This document shows positions 78 through 60,532 of a stretch of DNA of 64,000 bases, piece after piece (position 1 is the first letter of the stretch; every line of letters starts with the position of its first letter). The position numbers and the translations under genes are program-made. Location: positions 186,001-250,000 of the forward strand of contig NZ_BAFN01000001.1 of assembly GCF_000949635.1 (NCBI RefSeq). The letters run 5' to 3'. Origin of the DNA: Candidatus Brocadia sinica JPN1. Lineage in GTDB: Bacteria; Planctomycetota; Brocadiia; Brocadiales; Brocadiaceae. The notes beneath the pieces were generated by a model that made no database searches, had not been told where the DNA came from, and saw nothing but the letters and a program-made list of their open reading frames with translations.

Positions 78-116
78 AACGGTTTAAACGGTTTAAACCG
101 TTCAAACGGCTTAATC
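78..116. repeat. GTTTAAAC-type repeated words
   Basis: The gap between moxR and the DUF58 gene holds ACGGTTTAAACGG, TTTAAACCG and TTCAAACGG in close succession, forming overlapping palindromes. It is not followed by a clear T-run on the minus strand, so it is recorded as a repeat and not as a terminator. Confidence 0.4.
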
Positions 117-3694: not shown

Positions 3695-3721
3695 TTGACA
3701 AATTCTAAAGTTATGTATACT
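3695..3721 (+). promoter_or_regulatory. Candidate sigma-70-type promoter for the riboswitch transcript
   Basis: TTGACA at 3695-3700 and TATACT at 3716-3721 match the -35 and -10 consensus. The spacer is 15 bases, shorter than the optimal 17, and TG lies just before the -10 box (extended -10). The position just upstream of the cyclic-di-GMP aptamer makes it the likely start of the leader RNA. Confidence 0.5.
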
Positions 3722-3756: not shown

Positions 3757-3904
3757 AACAGTTCGATAAAGGCAAACCCTGAGCGATCAGGGGACGCAAA
3801 GGAAAGGGTCTTTACCTGTATAAGGAAGTATAGGAATAAAGAAATAAAAACTTTATAGCGTATACGGAAATACGCATCACATAAGATAGCCTTACTGCCG
3901 AAGG
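3757..3904 (+). ncRNA. Cyclic di-GMP-I (GEMM) riboswitch aptamer
   Basis: The stretch holds the GEMM-I core: GGCAAACC at 3771-3778, a stem CCCTGA/TCAGGG capped by a GCGA (GNRA) tetraloop, then GGACGCAAAGG and AAAGGGTCTTTACC. It ends with TAGCCTTACTGCCGAAGG, the 3' closing strand of this riboswitch class. The 3' strand overlaps the left arm of a terminator at 3888-3898, so ligand binding and termination should exclude each other. On that geometry ligand binding would free transcription (ON switch, an inference). The controlled gene is the secreted beta-helix protein starting at 4009. Confidence 0.88.
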
Positions 3905-3947
3905 TGTTTGCTATAAAATATCTTTGCAGTAAGGCTTTTTTGTTTTT
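3888..3947 (+). terminator. Riboswitch expression-platform terminator
   Basis: AGCCTTACTGC at 3888-3898 pairs perfectly with GCAGTAAGGCT at 3926-3936 and is followed by a long T-run. The left arm is shared with the 3' end of the cyclic-di-GMP aptamer, which is the standard layout of a transcription-attenuating riboswitch. Confidence 0.88.
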
Positions 3948-4008
3948 ATAGCATCAAAAAGCCACTTTATATCAATTTTATTTGCGGAGGGGAAGGAGAA
4001 AAAAATTT

Positions 4009-7000
4009 ATGGATATTGTCAAACGGAGTGCAAGGTCGTTTTTGTTGAGTGCAGGGCTGCTCTTGCTTGCGGTCTGTCTGCTAACATTGTCCAGTAATGG
4101 GGTTTCTTATGCGCTGAACCACAGCAGTAATATTACCAGCAATGAGACGTGGTATGCCGCTGACAATCCCCATATCGTTACGACCACCATACATGTGTAT
4201 AGCGGAGCAACATTAACGATAGAGAAAGGGTGTGAGGTAAGGTTTGATAGTATGGCGGGTCTTTACATCGGGTATTTCAGCGCGGCTACTTTGAATGCGG
4301 TAGGGACAGAAGATGCTCCCATCACCTTCACTTCCAATACAGGTTCCCCTGCGCCTAACGACTGGCGGGGGATCGTTTTTTGGAACAGCACGGTTGATGG
4401 CTCAACGATTATGGATTATTGCACGGTAGAATATGGGGGATATGACAGTCACCATTCGAACATCGACTGCGACAGCGCCTCGCCTACCATCCAGAATTGT
4501 ACCATACGGTATTCGGATGAATATGGAATCTATTGTGATAATAACTCAGCGCCCACATTGACAAACAACACGTTAAGTAACAATGGCGTTTATCCTATAA
4601 GTTTGTACTGCGGCATACTCGACAGCAATATTTCAGGCAATACCGGGAGCGGTAATGGGACAGATGCCATTGAGGTGCGGGACGGAAGTATAACATCAAA
4701 CCGTACCTGGGTTCTGCAAGACCTTTACTTTAATGTAACGGGCATCATCCATGTATATAGTGGCGCAATATTGACGATAAATCCCGGGTCTCTGGTGAAA
4801 TTTAATAGCACGGCAGCCCTTTTCATCGGGTATTACAGCGCGGCTACTTTGATTGCCAACGGGACAAGCGGCATCCCTATTACTTTCACTTCAAATGAAT
4901 CAACCCCAGCGCCCGGTGATTGGCGGGGGATCGTTTTTTTCAACAGCACGGTTGACGGCTCAACGATTCTGGACTATTGCACGATAGAATATGGGGGATA
5001 TGAAGACACTTACAATTCCAACATCAACTGCGACAACGCCTCTCCAACCATACAAAATTGCACCATACGGCATTCGGATGGATATGGAATCTATTGTGAT
5101 AATAACTCAGCACCCACATTGACAAACAACACGTTAAGTAACAATGGCAGTTACCCCATAAGTTTGTATTGCGGTATATTGGATACCCATGTAACAGGCA
5201 ATACGGGGAGCGGTAATGGGACAGATGCCATTGAGGTGCGGGACGGAAGTATAACATCAAACCGTACCTGGGTTCCGCAAGACCTTTACTTTAATGTGAC
5301 TGGCGGAGTCATCCATGTATATAGCGATGGAATATTGACGATAAATCCTGGGTGTTTGGTGAAATTTAATAGTATTGGAGGACTTTCTATTGGGTATTAC
5401 AGCGCGGGTACTTTGATTGCCAACGGGACAAGCGGCAGTCCTATTACCTTTACCTCAAATGAATCGACCCCTGCGCCCGGCGACTGGCGGGGGATCGTTT
5501 TTTGGAACAGCACGGTTGATGGCTCAACGATTATGGACTATTGTGCGGTGGAATATGGGGGATATGGCAGTCACAACTCCAATATCAATTGCGACCAAGC
5601 CTCGCCTACCATACAAAATTGCACCGTACGGCATTCGGATGGATATGGGATATATTGTGATAATAATGCTGCTCCCACGTTGACAAACAATACGATAAAT
5701 GACAATGGCAGTTACCCCATAAGCGAGTATTGTAACATGCTGGACAGCAACGTAACAGGAAATACCGGAAGCGGCAATGGGACAGATGCCATTCAGGTGC
5801 GCAGCGGGAATATAACGTCAAACCATACCTGGGTGCCGCAGGACTTATATTTTAATGTAACTGGCGGAGGCACCCACGTATATAGTGATGCAATATTGAC
5901 GATAAATCCCGGGTGTCTGGTGAAATTTGATGCCGGAACAGGTATTTACTTCGGATATTACGGCGCGGCTGCTTTAATTGCCGACGGGACAAGCGGCAAT
6001 CCCATCACCTTCACCTCAAACGAATCAACCCCCTCGCCTGCAGACTGGGAAGGGATCGTGTTTTACAATAGCACAGATGATAGCGCAACAATTATGGACT
6101 ATTGCACGGTGGAATATGGTGGATATGGCAGTCACAATTCCAACATAAATTGCAACCAAGCCTCGCCCACTATCCAACATTGCAAAATAAGGAATTCTGA
6201 TGGACATGGAATTTATACAACCGGAAGCGGCGCCCTGCCATTAATATCTTGTTCAAGAATAACGAATAATGTCAATGGCGTCTATGCAATGAGTAATTCG
6301 ATTCCAACCATAGCGGATTGCAGCATCTCCGGCAATACGAGTTATGGCGTTTACAATAACTCCAGTTCTGTCACGCTTGACGCTGAAAACAACTGGTGGG
6401 GCAGCGCCGATGGACCCGGTGGTGTCGGGCCTGGTTCAGGCGATGCAGTCAGCGCTAATGTTGATTTTACCCCATGGTTAAGCTCATTTGATAGTTGTCT
6501 TGAATCTATTGTTTTGAGCCCTGCATCTGATACAAATTTTGTAGGCTCCCTGCATACCGTAACTGCGACGGTGGAAGATGAGGCTGGTGATCCAATTGAG
6601 GGTGTAGTGGTATTTTTTTACATTACCTCCGGCCCACACGCAGGACTAAATGGCAATGACACAACGGATTCAAATGGTCAGGCAACGTTTACCTACACGG
6701 GAACTACGGATGGCACCGACACGATCGAGGCAACTTTTGTTGATTTCCATGGTAGGACTATAACATCACATGCAGTCACAAAGACATGGGAATACCCTGC
6801 TACACCAATACCAACACCTTCGCCAACACCAGAGATAACACCAACACCGTCGCCATCACCTGAGCCGTCACCAACACCGGAGATAACGCCATCGCCGATA
6901 CCAACGCCAACAGGCACGCCAACTGCCATTACTCTGGCATACTTTCATGCTAAGGCTGGCAAAGATGGCAGCGTCACTCTAACGTGGGAGACAGTTACGG

Positions 7001-7251
7001 AGGTTGACAATGCCGGCTTTAACCTTTGCCGATCAAAAAGCAAGGACGGGCACTACACAAAGGTCAATAATACAACCATCCCTGCCCAGGGCAACGCCGT
7101 ATCCGGAGCCAGTTACAGCTATGTGGATGAACCAGGCATAGGCACTTTCTACTACAAGCTGGAGGATGTAGACTACTACGGGGTAAGCACCTTGCATGGG
7201 CCGGAAAAGGTGAGGGTGAAATCAGGGAGTAATGCGGTACGCAGACGTTAG
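4009..7251 (+). CDS. Secreted right-handed beta-helix repeat protein under c-di-GMP riboswitch control
   Basis: A 1080-residue exported protein. The ATG at 4009 is chosen over the TTG at 3982 because GGAGGGGAAGGAG lies just upstream of it. Residues 1-37 form a signal peptide. Four tandem repeats of 186-187 residues start near residues 42, 228, 415 and 602. Each has ITSNxTW, a long beta-helix segment with GYYSAATL and DYCTVEYGGY, and ends in GSGNGTDAI. A Big-1-like Ig domain follows (about 833-927), then a threonine/proline/serine linker (932-972) and a C-terminal fibronectin-like domain. The many N-x-S/T words come from the repeat code. The likely role is adhesion or matrix (inference); no enzymatic residues are recognised. 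Confidence 0.88.
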   Translation: MDIVKRSARSFLLSAGLLLLAVCLLTLSSNGVSYALNHSSNITSNETWYAADNPHIVTTTIHVYSGATLTIEKGCEVRFDSMAGLYIGYFSAATLNAVGTEDAPITFTSNTGSPAPNDWRGIVFWNSTVDGSTIMDYCTVEYGGYDSHHSNIDCDSASPTIQNCTIRYSDEYGIYCDNNSAPTLTNNTLSNNGVYPISLYCGILDSNISGNTGSGNGTDAIEVRDGSITSNRTWVLQDLYFNVTGIIHVYSGAILTINPGSLVKFNSTAALFIGYYSAATLIANGTSGIPITFTSNESTPAPGDWRGIVFFNSTVDGSTILDYCTIEYGGYEDTYNSNINCDNASPTIQNCTIRHSDGYGIYCDNNSAPTLTNNTLSNNGSYPISLYCGILDTHVTGNTGSGNGTDAIEVRDGSITSNRTWVPQDLYFNVTGGVIHVYSDGILTINPGCLVKFNSIGGLSIGYYSAGTLIANGTSGSPITFTSNESTPAPGDWRGIVFWNSTVDGSTIMDYCAVEYGGYGSHNSNINCDQASPTIQNCTVRHSDGYGIYCDNNAAPTLTNNTINDNGSYPISEYCNMLDSNVTGNTGSGNGTDAIQVRSGNITSNHTWVPQDLYFNVTGGGTHVYSDAILTINPGCLVKFDAGTGIYFGYYGAAALIADGTSGNPITFTSNESTPSPADWEGIVFYNSTDDSATIMDYCTVEYGGYGSHNSNINCNQASPTIQHCKIRNSDGHGIYTTGSGALPLISCSRITNNVNGVYAMSNSIPTIADCSISGNTSYGVYNNSSSVTLDAENNWWGSADGPGGVGPGSGDAVSANVDFTPWLSSFDSCLESIVLSPASDTNFVGSLHTVTATVEDEAGDPIEGVVVFFYITSGPHAGLNGNDTTDSNGQATFTYTGTTDGTDTIEATFVDFHGRTITSHAVTKTWEYPATPIPTPSPTPEITPTPSPSPEPSPTPEITPSPIPTPTGTPTAITLAYFHAKAGKDGSVTLTWETVTEVDNAGFNLCRSKSKDGHYTKVNNTTIPAQGNAVSGASYSYVDEPGIGTFYYKLEDVDYYGVSTLHGPEKVRVKSGSNAVRRR
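4132..6370 (+). repeat. Four intragenic tandem repeats of 558-561 bases
   Basis: Repeat units begin at 4132, 4690, 5251 and 5812, so spacing is 558, 561 and 561 bases. Units 2 and 3 share long stretches of identical DNA, for example around 4690-4740 and 5251-5300. Unit 4 is the most diverged. All spacings are multiples of three, so gain or loss of units would keep the frame. Confidence 0.9.
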
Positions 7252-59244: not shown

Positions 59245-60274
59245 TCATGGAGTATAGTGTCCACCGGTGCTGAGATTATTATTAGAGCCATCAGTCCTAG
59301 TACCCCCACACACAATCATCTGCGTGCCCGTCCACACCGCAGTGTGCCAGTATCGGGCAGTGGGGGCTGCCCCCGTAGGCATTGCAGACCAGGTGTTGAG
59401 CGCATAGGGTAGGGGGGGCTCCTGCTGCAATTTCAGGAAACGACAGGTAAATGCCTCACCTTCCACCTCAGGGGCAAACCGCTCACCCATCCGTACCCAC
59501 CACTCATCAAACCCTTTCTTTTTCCACTCAACAACGGCTACCTTTACTCGATCTGACCCTTTCCTCAATACCTCCATCACATAAAACCTCTCCCCATACT
59601 CCTGTAATGCGCTTACACGACGCAACGGTATATCCTGTTCCTCCCCTCCAAAAAGCCTCAGCCAACTTTCCAATCGCCTCCTGCCACTCATCCTCTGACA
59701 GTTCCAGGACGTCTCCACTCCTGTTCTCCGTTGCCTCTTCTCCTAGATTTGTCCCTTTCCTCCATTCCACCTCACGGCATTCCCCTCCCATCCCCTTCAT
59801 GTCCTCTATTCGTGTATTAAGCCTTTCCATTAACAAGGGTCTTGCCAGACACTCTGCTATCAACTGTAGATCATTACCTAGCGCCGACCATAGTTCACGT
59901 AATATCTCAGGGTTCCGGGTTGTCTCTGCCATTCGCTCCATTTCCGCCTGGAGCTGATACCCATCGACCGGCTGCTTCCAGATAACCTCCAGAGCCTTTG
60001 ACATCCTCAGCGTCTCCTCCACCTTCTTTCTCAGTTCATCTTCAAATATAACCTCGCTCAGTGGTGGTTTCGGGGAGGTATTTTCCTCAGGCCATATCGT
60101 ATGTTTCCAGTAGACCTCTTCTATTGACCTCTGGCATGTCACCCTCGCCTCAAAGCTCAATCCCAATGAGTCTGCCTTTACCCATCCGGACCATCCGGCT
60201 AAACATAAAACACTTAAAAGTCCTATTTTCCACCACCTGCATACTGCGACTTCCATCCATAAACGATTCATCAT
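59245..60274 (-). pseudogene. Secreted kelch-type protein, frameshifted and truncated, under c-di-GMP riboswitch
   Basis: The first frame (ATG 60274, AGAGGAG upstream) opens with a signal peptide (WWKIGLLSVLCLAGWSGWVKA) and a helical charged region of about 200 residues, reaching WQEAIGKLAEAF. Near 59650 a +1 shift at a T5/G4 run is needed to continue LFGGEEQDIPLRRVSALQEY. That frame ends in one kelch-like unit (NTWSAMPTGAAPTARYWHTA, then VWTGTQMIVCGG) and stops at 59245 after GGHYTP. Full kelch propellers have four to seven units, so the gene has lost its 3' part as well. A cyclic-di-GMP riboswitch precedes it. Confidence 0.82.
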
Positions 60275-60376: not shown

Positions 60377-60438
60377 TCAAAAAAAAGCCTTACTGCAAAA
60401 GACGATCTTTGGAAAAAAACGTCTTCGGCAGTAAGGCT
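60377..60438 (-). terminator. Riboswitch expression-platform terminator, second copy
   Basis: On the minus strand AGCCTTACTGC (60428-60438) pairs with GCAGTAAGGCT (60386-60396) and is followed by eight T residues. The stem is identical to that of the riboswitch at 3888. Confidence 0.88.
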
Positions 60439-60532
60439 ATCTTTCTATTTTCCTGCGTTTGCAGGAAAATAGTTTAAAGACCCTTTACTTTGCGCCCCCC
60501 TGATCACTCAGGGTTTACCTTTGTCGTAACAA
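60420..60532 (-). ncRNA. Cyclic di-GMP-I (GEMM) riboswitch aptamer, second copy
   Basis: Read on the minus strand: ACGACAAAGGTAAACCC, a CCCTGA/TCAGGG stem with GTGA (GNRA) loop, GGCGCAAAG, then AAAGGGTCTTTA. A long stem CTATTTTCCTGC/GCAGGAAAATAG follows, and finally TAGCCTTACTGCCGAAG. The core matches the copy at 3757-3904 almost base for base and has the same overlap with a terminator. The controlled gene is the broken kelch-type gene starting at 60274. Confidence 0.88.

Follow-up and report, generated by a model that had tools for sequence, protein, structure and literature searches.

A predicted c-di-GMP ON riboswitch before a putative surface protein gene of Candidatus Brocadia sinica, its genome-wide copies and a possible CsrA input

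Results

An aptamer-containing leader precedes a putative surface protein gene

The window analysed here, a stretch of 64,000 nucleotides from Candidatus Brocadia sinica JPN1, contains near its start a frame of 1080 residues beginning at ATG 4009, in agreement with the initial annotation, which placed a large secreted repeat protein at this site (Table 1). The protein has a signal-peptide-like N-terminus, four beta-helix stretches and a Big_1 (Ig-like) domain, and it is on just these features that an adhesin-like surface role can be proposed, the function of the beta-helix protein being likewise a prediction from its sequence. Its closest named relatives are from Candidatus Brocadia, with 69–71% identity, and the related gene is also preceded by a riboswitch in Brocadia WS118 and AMX1. 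A likely ribosome-binding site and a weak, closely spaced pair of promoter-like hexamers can be read in the leader region, while a consensus promoter scan using 16–18 nt spacing found none.

Using a whole-library Rfam scan of the window we detected a c-di-GMP-I (RF01051) match on the forward strand with a score of 54.5 bits, above the cut-off of 35 (E 7e-08), which bears out the earlier reading of a GEMM-I core with a GNRA-capped stem. Both core motifs, GGCAAACC and GACGCAAAG, are present, a GCGA (GNRA) loop caps a 6-bp stem, and the element resembles RF01051 in these motifs, in P1, P2 and P3, in the loop and in its score. Unlike the family in general, it has a very long, variable P3 insert of about 73 nt with two conserved ANGGAN hairpins, and at least 56 copies in one genome. 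The covariance-model alignment also placed a non-standard pair, G3802/A3894, in P3. The pocket positions GGCAAACC, CGCAAAG and CTGCC are all found, and these we take, in Vc2 numbering, to be G20, A47 and C92. At its marker positions the element reads GG..AAAC and CGCAAAG, as expected of the c-di-GMP type, and c-di-GMP is the predicted ligand.

Two neighbouring classes were considered. In the genome 34 copies exceed the cut-off of c-di-GMP-I-GGC (RF03167); however, the window copy scored 56.4 bits, under the cut-off of 59, and the RF03167 consensus has CGCGAAG, whereas B. sinica copies are without that G, with CGCAAAG in all but two (CGCAATG and CTCAAAG). Membership was therefore rejected in spite of the good model score. 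We take the GEMM-Ib cGAMP class to be marked by a base change at the G20 position, and a cGAMP reading of the window copy was likewise rejected, as the pocket G is kept (GGCAAACC). One other B. sinica copy, L077, has GACAAACC at this place. The base at the G20 position is a selectivity factor (PMC9262584).

Table 1. Features of the two riboswitch loci in the window.
Feature	Position	Strand	Basis or detail
Possible promoter	3695-3721	+	TTGACA 3695-3700, TATACT 3716-3721, spacing 15 (short); read from sequence; weak
c-di-GMP-I aptamer	3761-3902	+	RF01051 54.5 bits; pair list
Aptamer P1	3763-3765/3899-3901	+	Pair list
Aptamer P2, GCGA loop	3777-3782/3787-3792	+	Pair list
Aptamer P3	3800-3810 (5' strand), 3885-3896 (3' strand)	+	Pair list
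P3 insert hairpin 1, CCTGTAT-AAGGAA-GTATAGG	3815-3834	+	ANGGAN hexaloop, CsrA-like; fold; 18/20 identical in AMX1
P3 insert hairpin 2, GCGTAT-ACGGAA-ATACGC	3858-3875	+	ANGGAN hexaloop, CsrA-like; fold; 17/18 identical in AMX1
Intrinsic terminator	3888-3941	+	Left arm 3888-3898, right arm 3926-3936, T tract 3936-3941; fold
Likely ribosome-binding site AAGGAG	3993-3998	+	Read from sequence
Secreted beta-helix/Big_1 protein, putative surface protein	4009-7251	+	1080 aa
Second c-di-GMP-I aptamer	60424-60529	-	RF01051 53.8 bits
Overlapping terminator of second aptamer	60379-60438	-	AGCCTTACTGC ... GCAGTAAGGCT, 8 T
Frame behind second riboswitch	59528-60274	-	Signal-peptide-like start, no Pfam match

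The aptamer shares a strand with an intrinsic terminator

The left terminator arm, AGCCTTACTGC, is fully complementary to GCAGTAAGGCT in the right arm, producing a perfect 11-bp stem with six T at its 3' end. On folding, the 56-nt hairpin reached -28 kcal/mol (z -7.8), with 0 shuffles equally stable. The left arm overlaps the P3 3' strand and takes in the next two bases, the common strand being 3888–3896, and the proposal that this strand doubles as the arm of a perfect terminator is thus confirmed. Aptamer and terminator are mutually exclusive. Furthermore, the last base of the left arm is the first C of GCC. We take this base to be the ligand-pairing C92 in the same numbering, and so terminator formation would also remove the pocket. 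Mutual exclusion together with capture of the ligand-pairing C makes an ON switch the best reading.

We evaluated the two structures along the nascent leader using enforced folding. When 3902 is reached the leader with aptamer pairs enforced has an energy of -29.9 kcal/mol; by 3930 this is -35.3 kcal/mol compared with -52.6 kcal/mol for the partly formed terminator, which nucleates at about this point, and for the full-length leader the aptamer and terminator folds reach -35.9 and -63.5 kcal/mol, respectively. In these models the terminator, unaided, outcompetes the aptamer, and because it is far more stable the ligand would have to act before the right arm emerges, so that the decision would be kinetic, as in ON switches. 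The aptamer could fold once the P3 3' strand is out (to about 3902), and bound c-di-GMP would keep P3 closed and withhold this strand from the terminator, allowing polymerase to read into the beta-helix gene. With no ligand, the right arm would capture GCCUUACUGC, including the ligand-pairing C, and transcription would stop in the T tract. In the pilM GEMM-I switch of Geobacter metallireducens, which senses cGAMP and whose ON logic was measured (PMC9262584), the terminator likewise forms from the aptamer's own strand and sequesters the ligand-pairing C, although the window element has c-di-GMP-type marker bases and its ON logic is a prediction.

The much greater stability of the terminator, along with elements in other genera that read as OFF terminators (see below), would also fit an intact aptamer whose binding promotes termination or does nothing, the overlapping terminator being constitutive. 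However, the terminator borrows one of its arms from the aptamer, which in its bound state would keep the terminator from forming, and no separate antiterminator strand was seen in the leader; we regard an OFF or non-regulatory element as unlikely. Three observations count against an ON switch, namely the non-standard P3 pair, the small number of compensatory changes (see below) and the related gene in B. carolinensis, upstream of which no riboswitch match was found. Overall, covariance model, folding and comparison back the ON logic that had been suggested at the outset, with transcription only when c-di-GMP is bound, and we give a probability of about 0.85 that the window element is a transcriptional ON riboswitch for c-di-GMP, its direction being predicted from anatomy and precedent.

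The element is present in many copies across the genome

Scoring 150 of 390 candidates in the B. sinica genome (4.08 Mb, 3 contigs) gave at least 56 RF01051 matches, at least 55 of them above the cut-off, and as such 56 is a possible floor. The view that the riboswitch links c-di-GMP to one adhesin-like gene does not stand, as the copies lie mostly before unrelated genes and a second is found within the window, sharing the architecture of the first. The gene behind this second copy (59245–60274, reverse strand) seems split, with a second, shifted frame at 59245–59718, which may be a frameshift or an assembly error; its N-terminal frame resembles that of a 465-aa Kelch protein at another riboswitch locus (L083).

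We sampled 105 elements carrying a CCTTAC-type strand, and 99 of them retain the overlapping terminator. Compensatory changes were few in the 105 because this strand hardly varies, and with so little variation to draw on, covariation was discarded as a means of proving the terminator. Two B. sinica copies (L031 and L035) are without an overlapping terminator. The P3 inserts of seven copies (L037, L038, L041, L048, L062, L064 and L082) contain the 3' strand a second time, for example as GACAACCTTACTT, and this duplicate might compete with the real 3' strand for pairing to the 5' side of P3.

So many copies before mostly unrelated genes, with P3 inserts that often carry a palindromic repeat also found elsewhere in the genome, might point to a mobile or repetitive intergenic element of which most copies do not regulate the next gene. 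We consider this very unlikely, since variation is found in the inserts and flanks but the aptamer core and the two terminator arms are preserved, promoter-like hexamers lie at differing distances, and most copies precede a frame of the same orientation by no more than a few hundred bases. The palindromic repeat GTTTAAACNGTTTAAAC (window 82–98) occurs at 32 places in the genome, compared with 0 for the reversed pattern; many are inside P3 inserts and others, including window 82–98, are outside. The GTTTAAAC palindromes were rejected as part of the switch, with 32 places genome-wide and several outside riboswitches, and a promoter–riboswitch cassette was rejected on the varying distances of the promoter-like hexamers.

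Target genes and distribution in relatives

The first frames downstream of the copies are mixed and include Laminin_G_3, beta-propeller, RCC1, PKD and TIG domain proteins, c-type cytochromes, sigma-54 activators, a contractile-system sheath protein and a GGDEF-EAL protein. As target frames were chosen automatically, individual assignments may be mistaken. A crude hydropathy rule predicts secretion for 30 of 56 target frames compared with 14 of 56 window frames (Fisher p 0.003), or with 18 of 56 when window frames that have additional membrane stretches are counted (p 0.035). The sheath protein frame (1025–2971 of L044) and the GGDEF-EAL frame (688–5121 of L086) are each preceded by a riboswitch copy, and the latter arrangement suggests feedback on c-di-GMP turnover. 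The genome encodes 16 full GGDEF domains, which speaks in favour of a switch for c-di-GMP.

Ten other genomes of the genus Brocadia have 19–45 matches each and other genera of the family 1–28, while outside the order there are at most 5 per genome among 392 genomes sampled from the phylum, scored at 10 candidates per genome, a number that outside-order genomes stayed below. In related genera (L196–L235) the same aptamer is joined to platforms that resemble OFF terminators or involve the ribosome site. In some elements, for example L204, L220 and L224, the right arm of a downstream terminator reads as a repeat of the 5' P3 strand (GGGTCTT), an arrangement from which OFF control is predicted, and others (L196 and L202) show complementarity to the ribosome site and are read as putative ribosome-site hairpins. 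As these platforms differ, control appears to have switched sign among members of the family.

Hairpins in the P3 insert suggest a possible CsrA input

The ANGGAN hexaloop carried by both P3 insert hairpins is the RsmE/CsrA recognition element, and RUACARGGAUGU is the CsrA SELEX consensus (PMC7652899); other copies fit the latter, for example GTACAAGGATGT in L038. Gapped alignments with Brocadia AMX1 gave 90–94% identity for the hairpins, 46/50 for the 5' part of the aptamer and 53/57 for the terminator, whereas the linker (14/25, 56%), the post-terminator leader (50/115) and the 120 nt lying upstream (76/143) had drifted (flanks 43–53%), and the loop difference sits on the N of ANGGAN. Of 48 dereplicated inserts, 6 have the motif in a predicted loop, compared with 0.9 for shuffled inserts, where 100 runs gave a maximum of 3, and A.GGA. 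fits 19 of 26 hexaloops in non-palindromic P3 inserts compared with 5 of the window's 1080 hexaloop hairpins. There are two csrA genes in the genome, both above the PF02599 cut-off. Naming neighbours from sequence, one (of loci L236 and L237) is beside fliW-like and flgL-like frames and the other is between gvpA-like and gvpN-like frames in a gas vesicle cluster.

In Legionella pneumophila a TPP riboswitch that ends in a terminator is overlapped by an A(N)GGA element and modulated by CsrA (PMC5338858); the window element is similar in its layout, but has a c-di-GMP aptamer, candidate sites in a peripheral arm and predicted ON logic. The conserved hairpins, the AMX1 change confined to the N, the loop enrichment, the csrA genes and the Legionella precedent together make a CsrA input plausible, and we tentatively suggest a dual input in which CsrA on the two hairpins would shift the c-di-GMP threshold or the transcript fate. 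This would extend the ON-riboswitch explanation, with the direction of the CsrA effect not readable from sequence. However, only about a quarter of the sampled elements (26 of 105) have an ANGGAN-type hairpin, the copies are related by descent and the counts not independent, stable stems of 6–7 bp are not typical SELEX winners, and the hairpins may simply close the long arm. We therefore hold a CsrA input to be possible but somewhat less probable than its absence. Titles and abstracts on CsrA with c-di-GMP riboswitches described no CsrA site in the aptamer.

Discussion

The window riboswitch belongs to an ordinary class, but its copy number is unusual and its candidate protein-binding arm may be new. 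Geobacter sulfurreducens has 17 GEMM-I switches (PMC8835794), and the B. sinica copy number is well above this. Among the papers listed on riboswitches in anammox bacteria or Brocadia, none was on point. It is conceivable, though we would not assume it, that the genus has built a large c-di-GMP regulon from one RNA module of ~20–56 copies per genome, with a subset, including the window copy, as two-input devices with CsrA.

Anammox bacteria are active in granules and biofilms and are not available in pure culture (PMC11224092), which makes genetic tests of what controls their aggregation difficult. At least 56 candidate c-di-GMP outputs, many with predicted secreted products, are here legible from the DNA of one genome. 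With one module reused before dozens of genes, c-di-GMP would switch on a set enriched in secreted proteins, plausibly when the anammox bacterium aggregates. If true, the two-input device would furthermore tie CsrA's own regulators (the fliW-like neighbour) to surface-protein expression.
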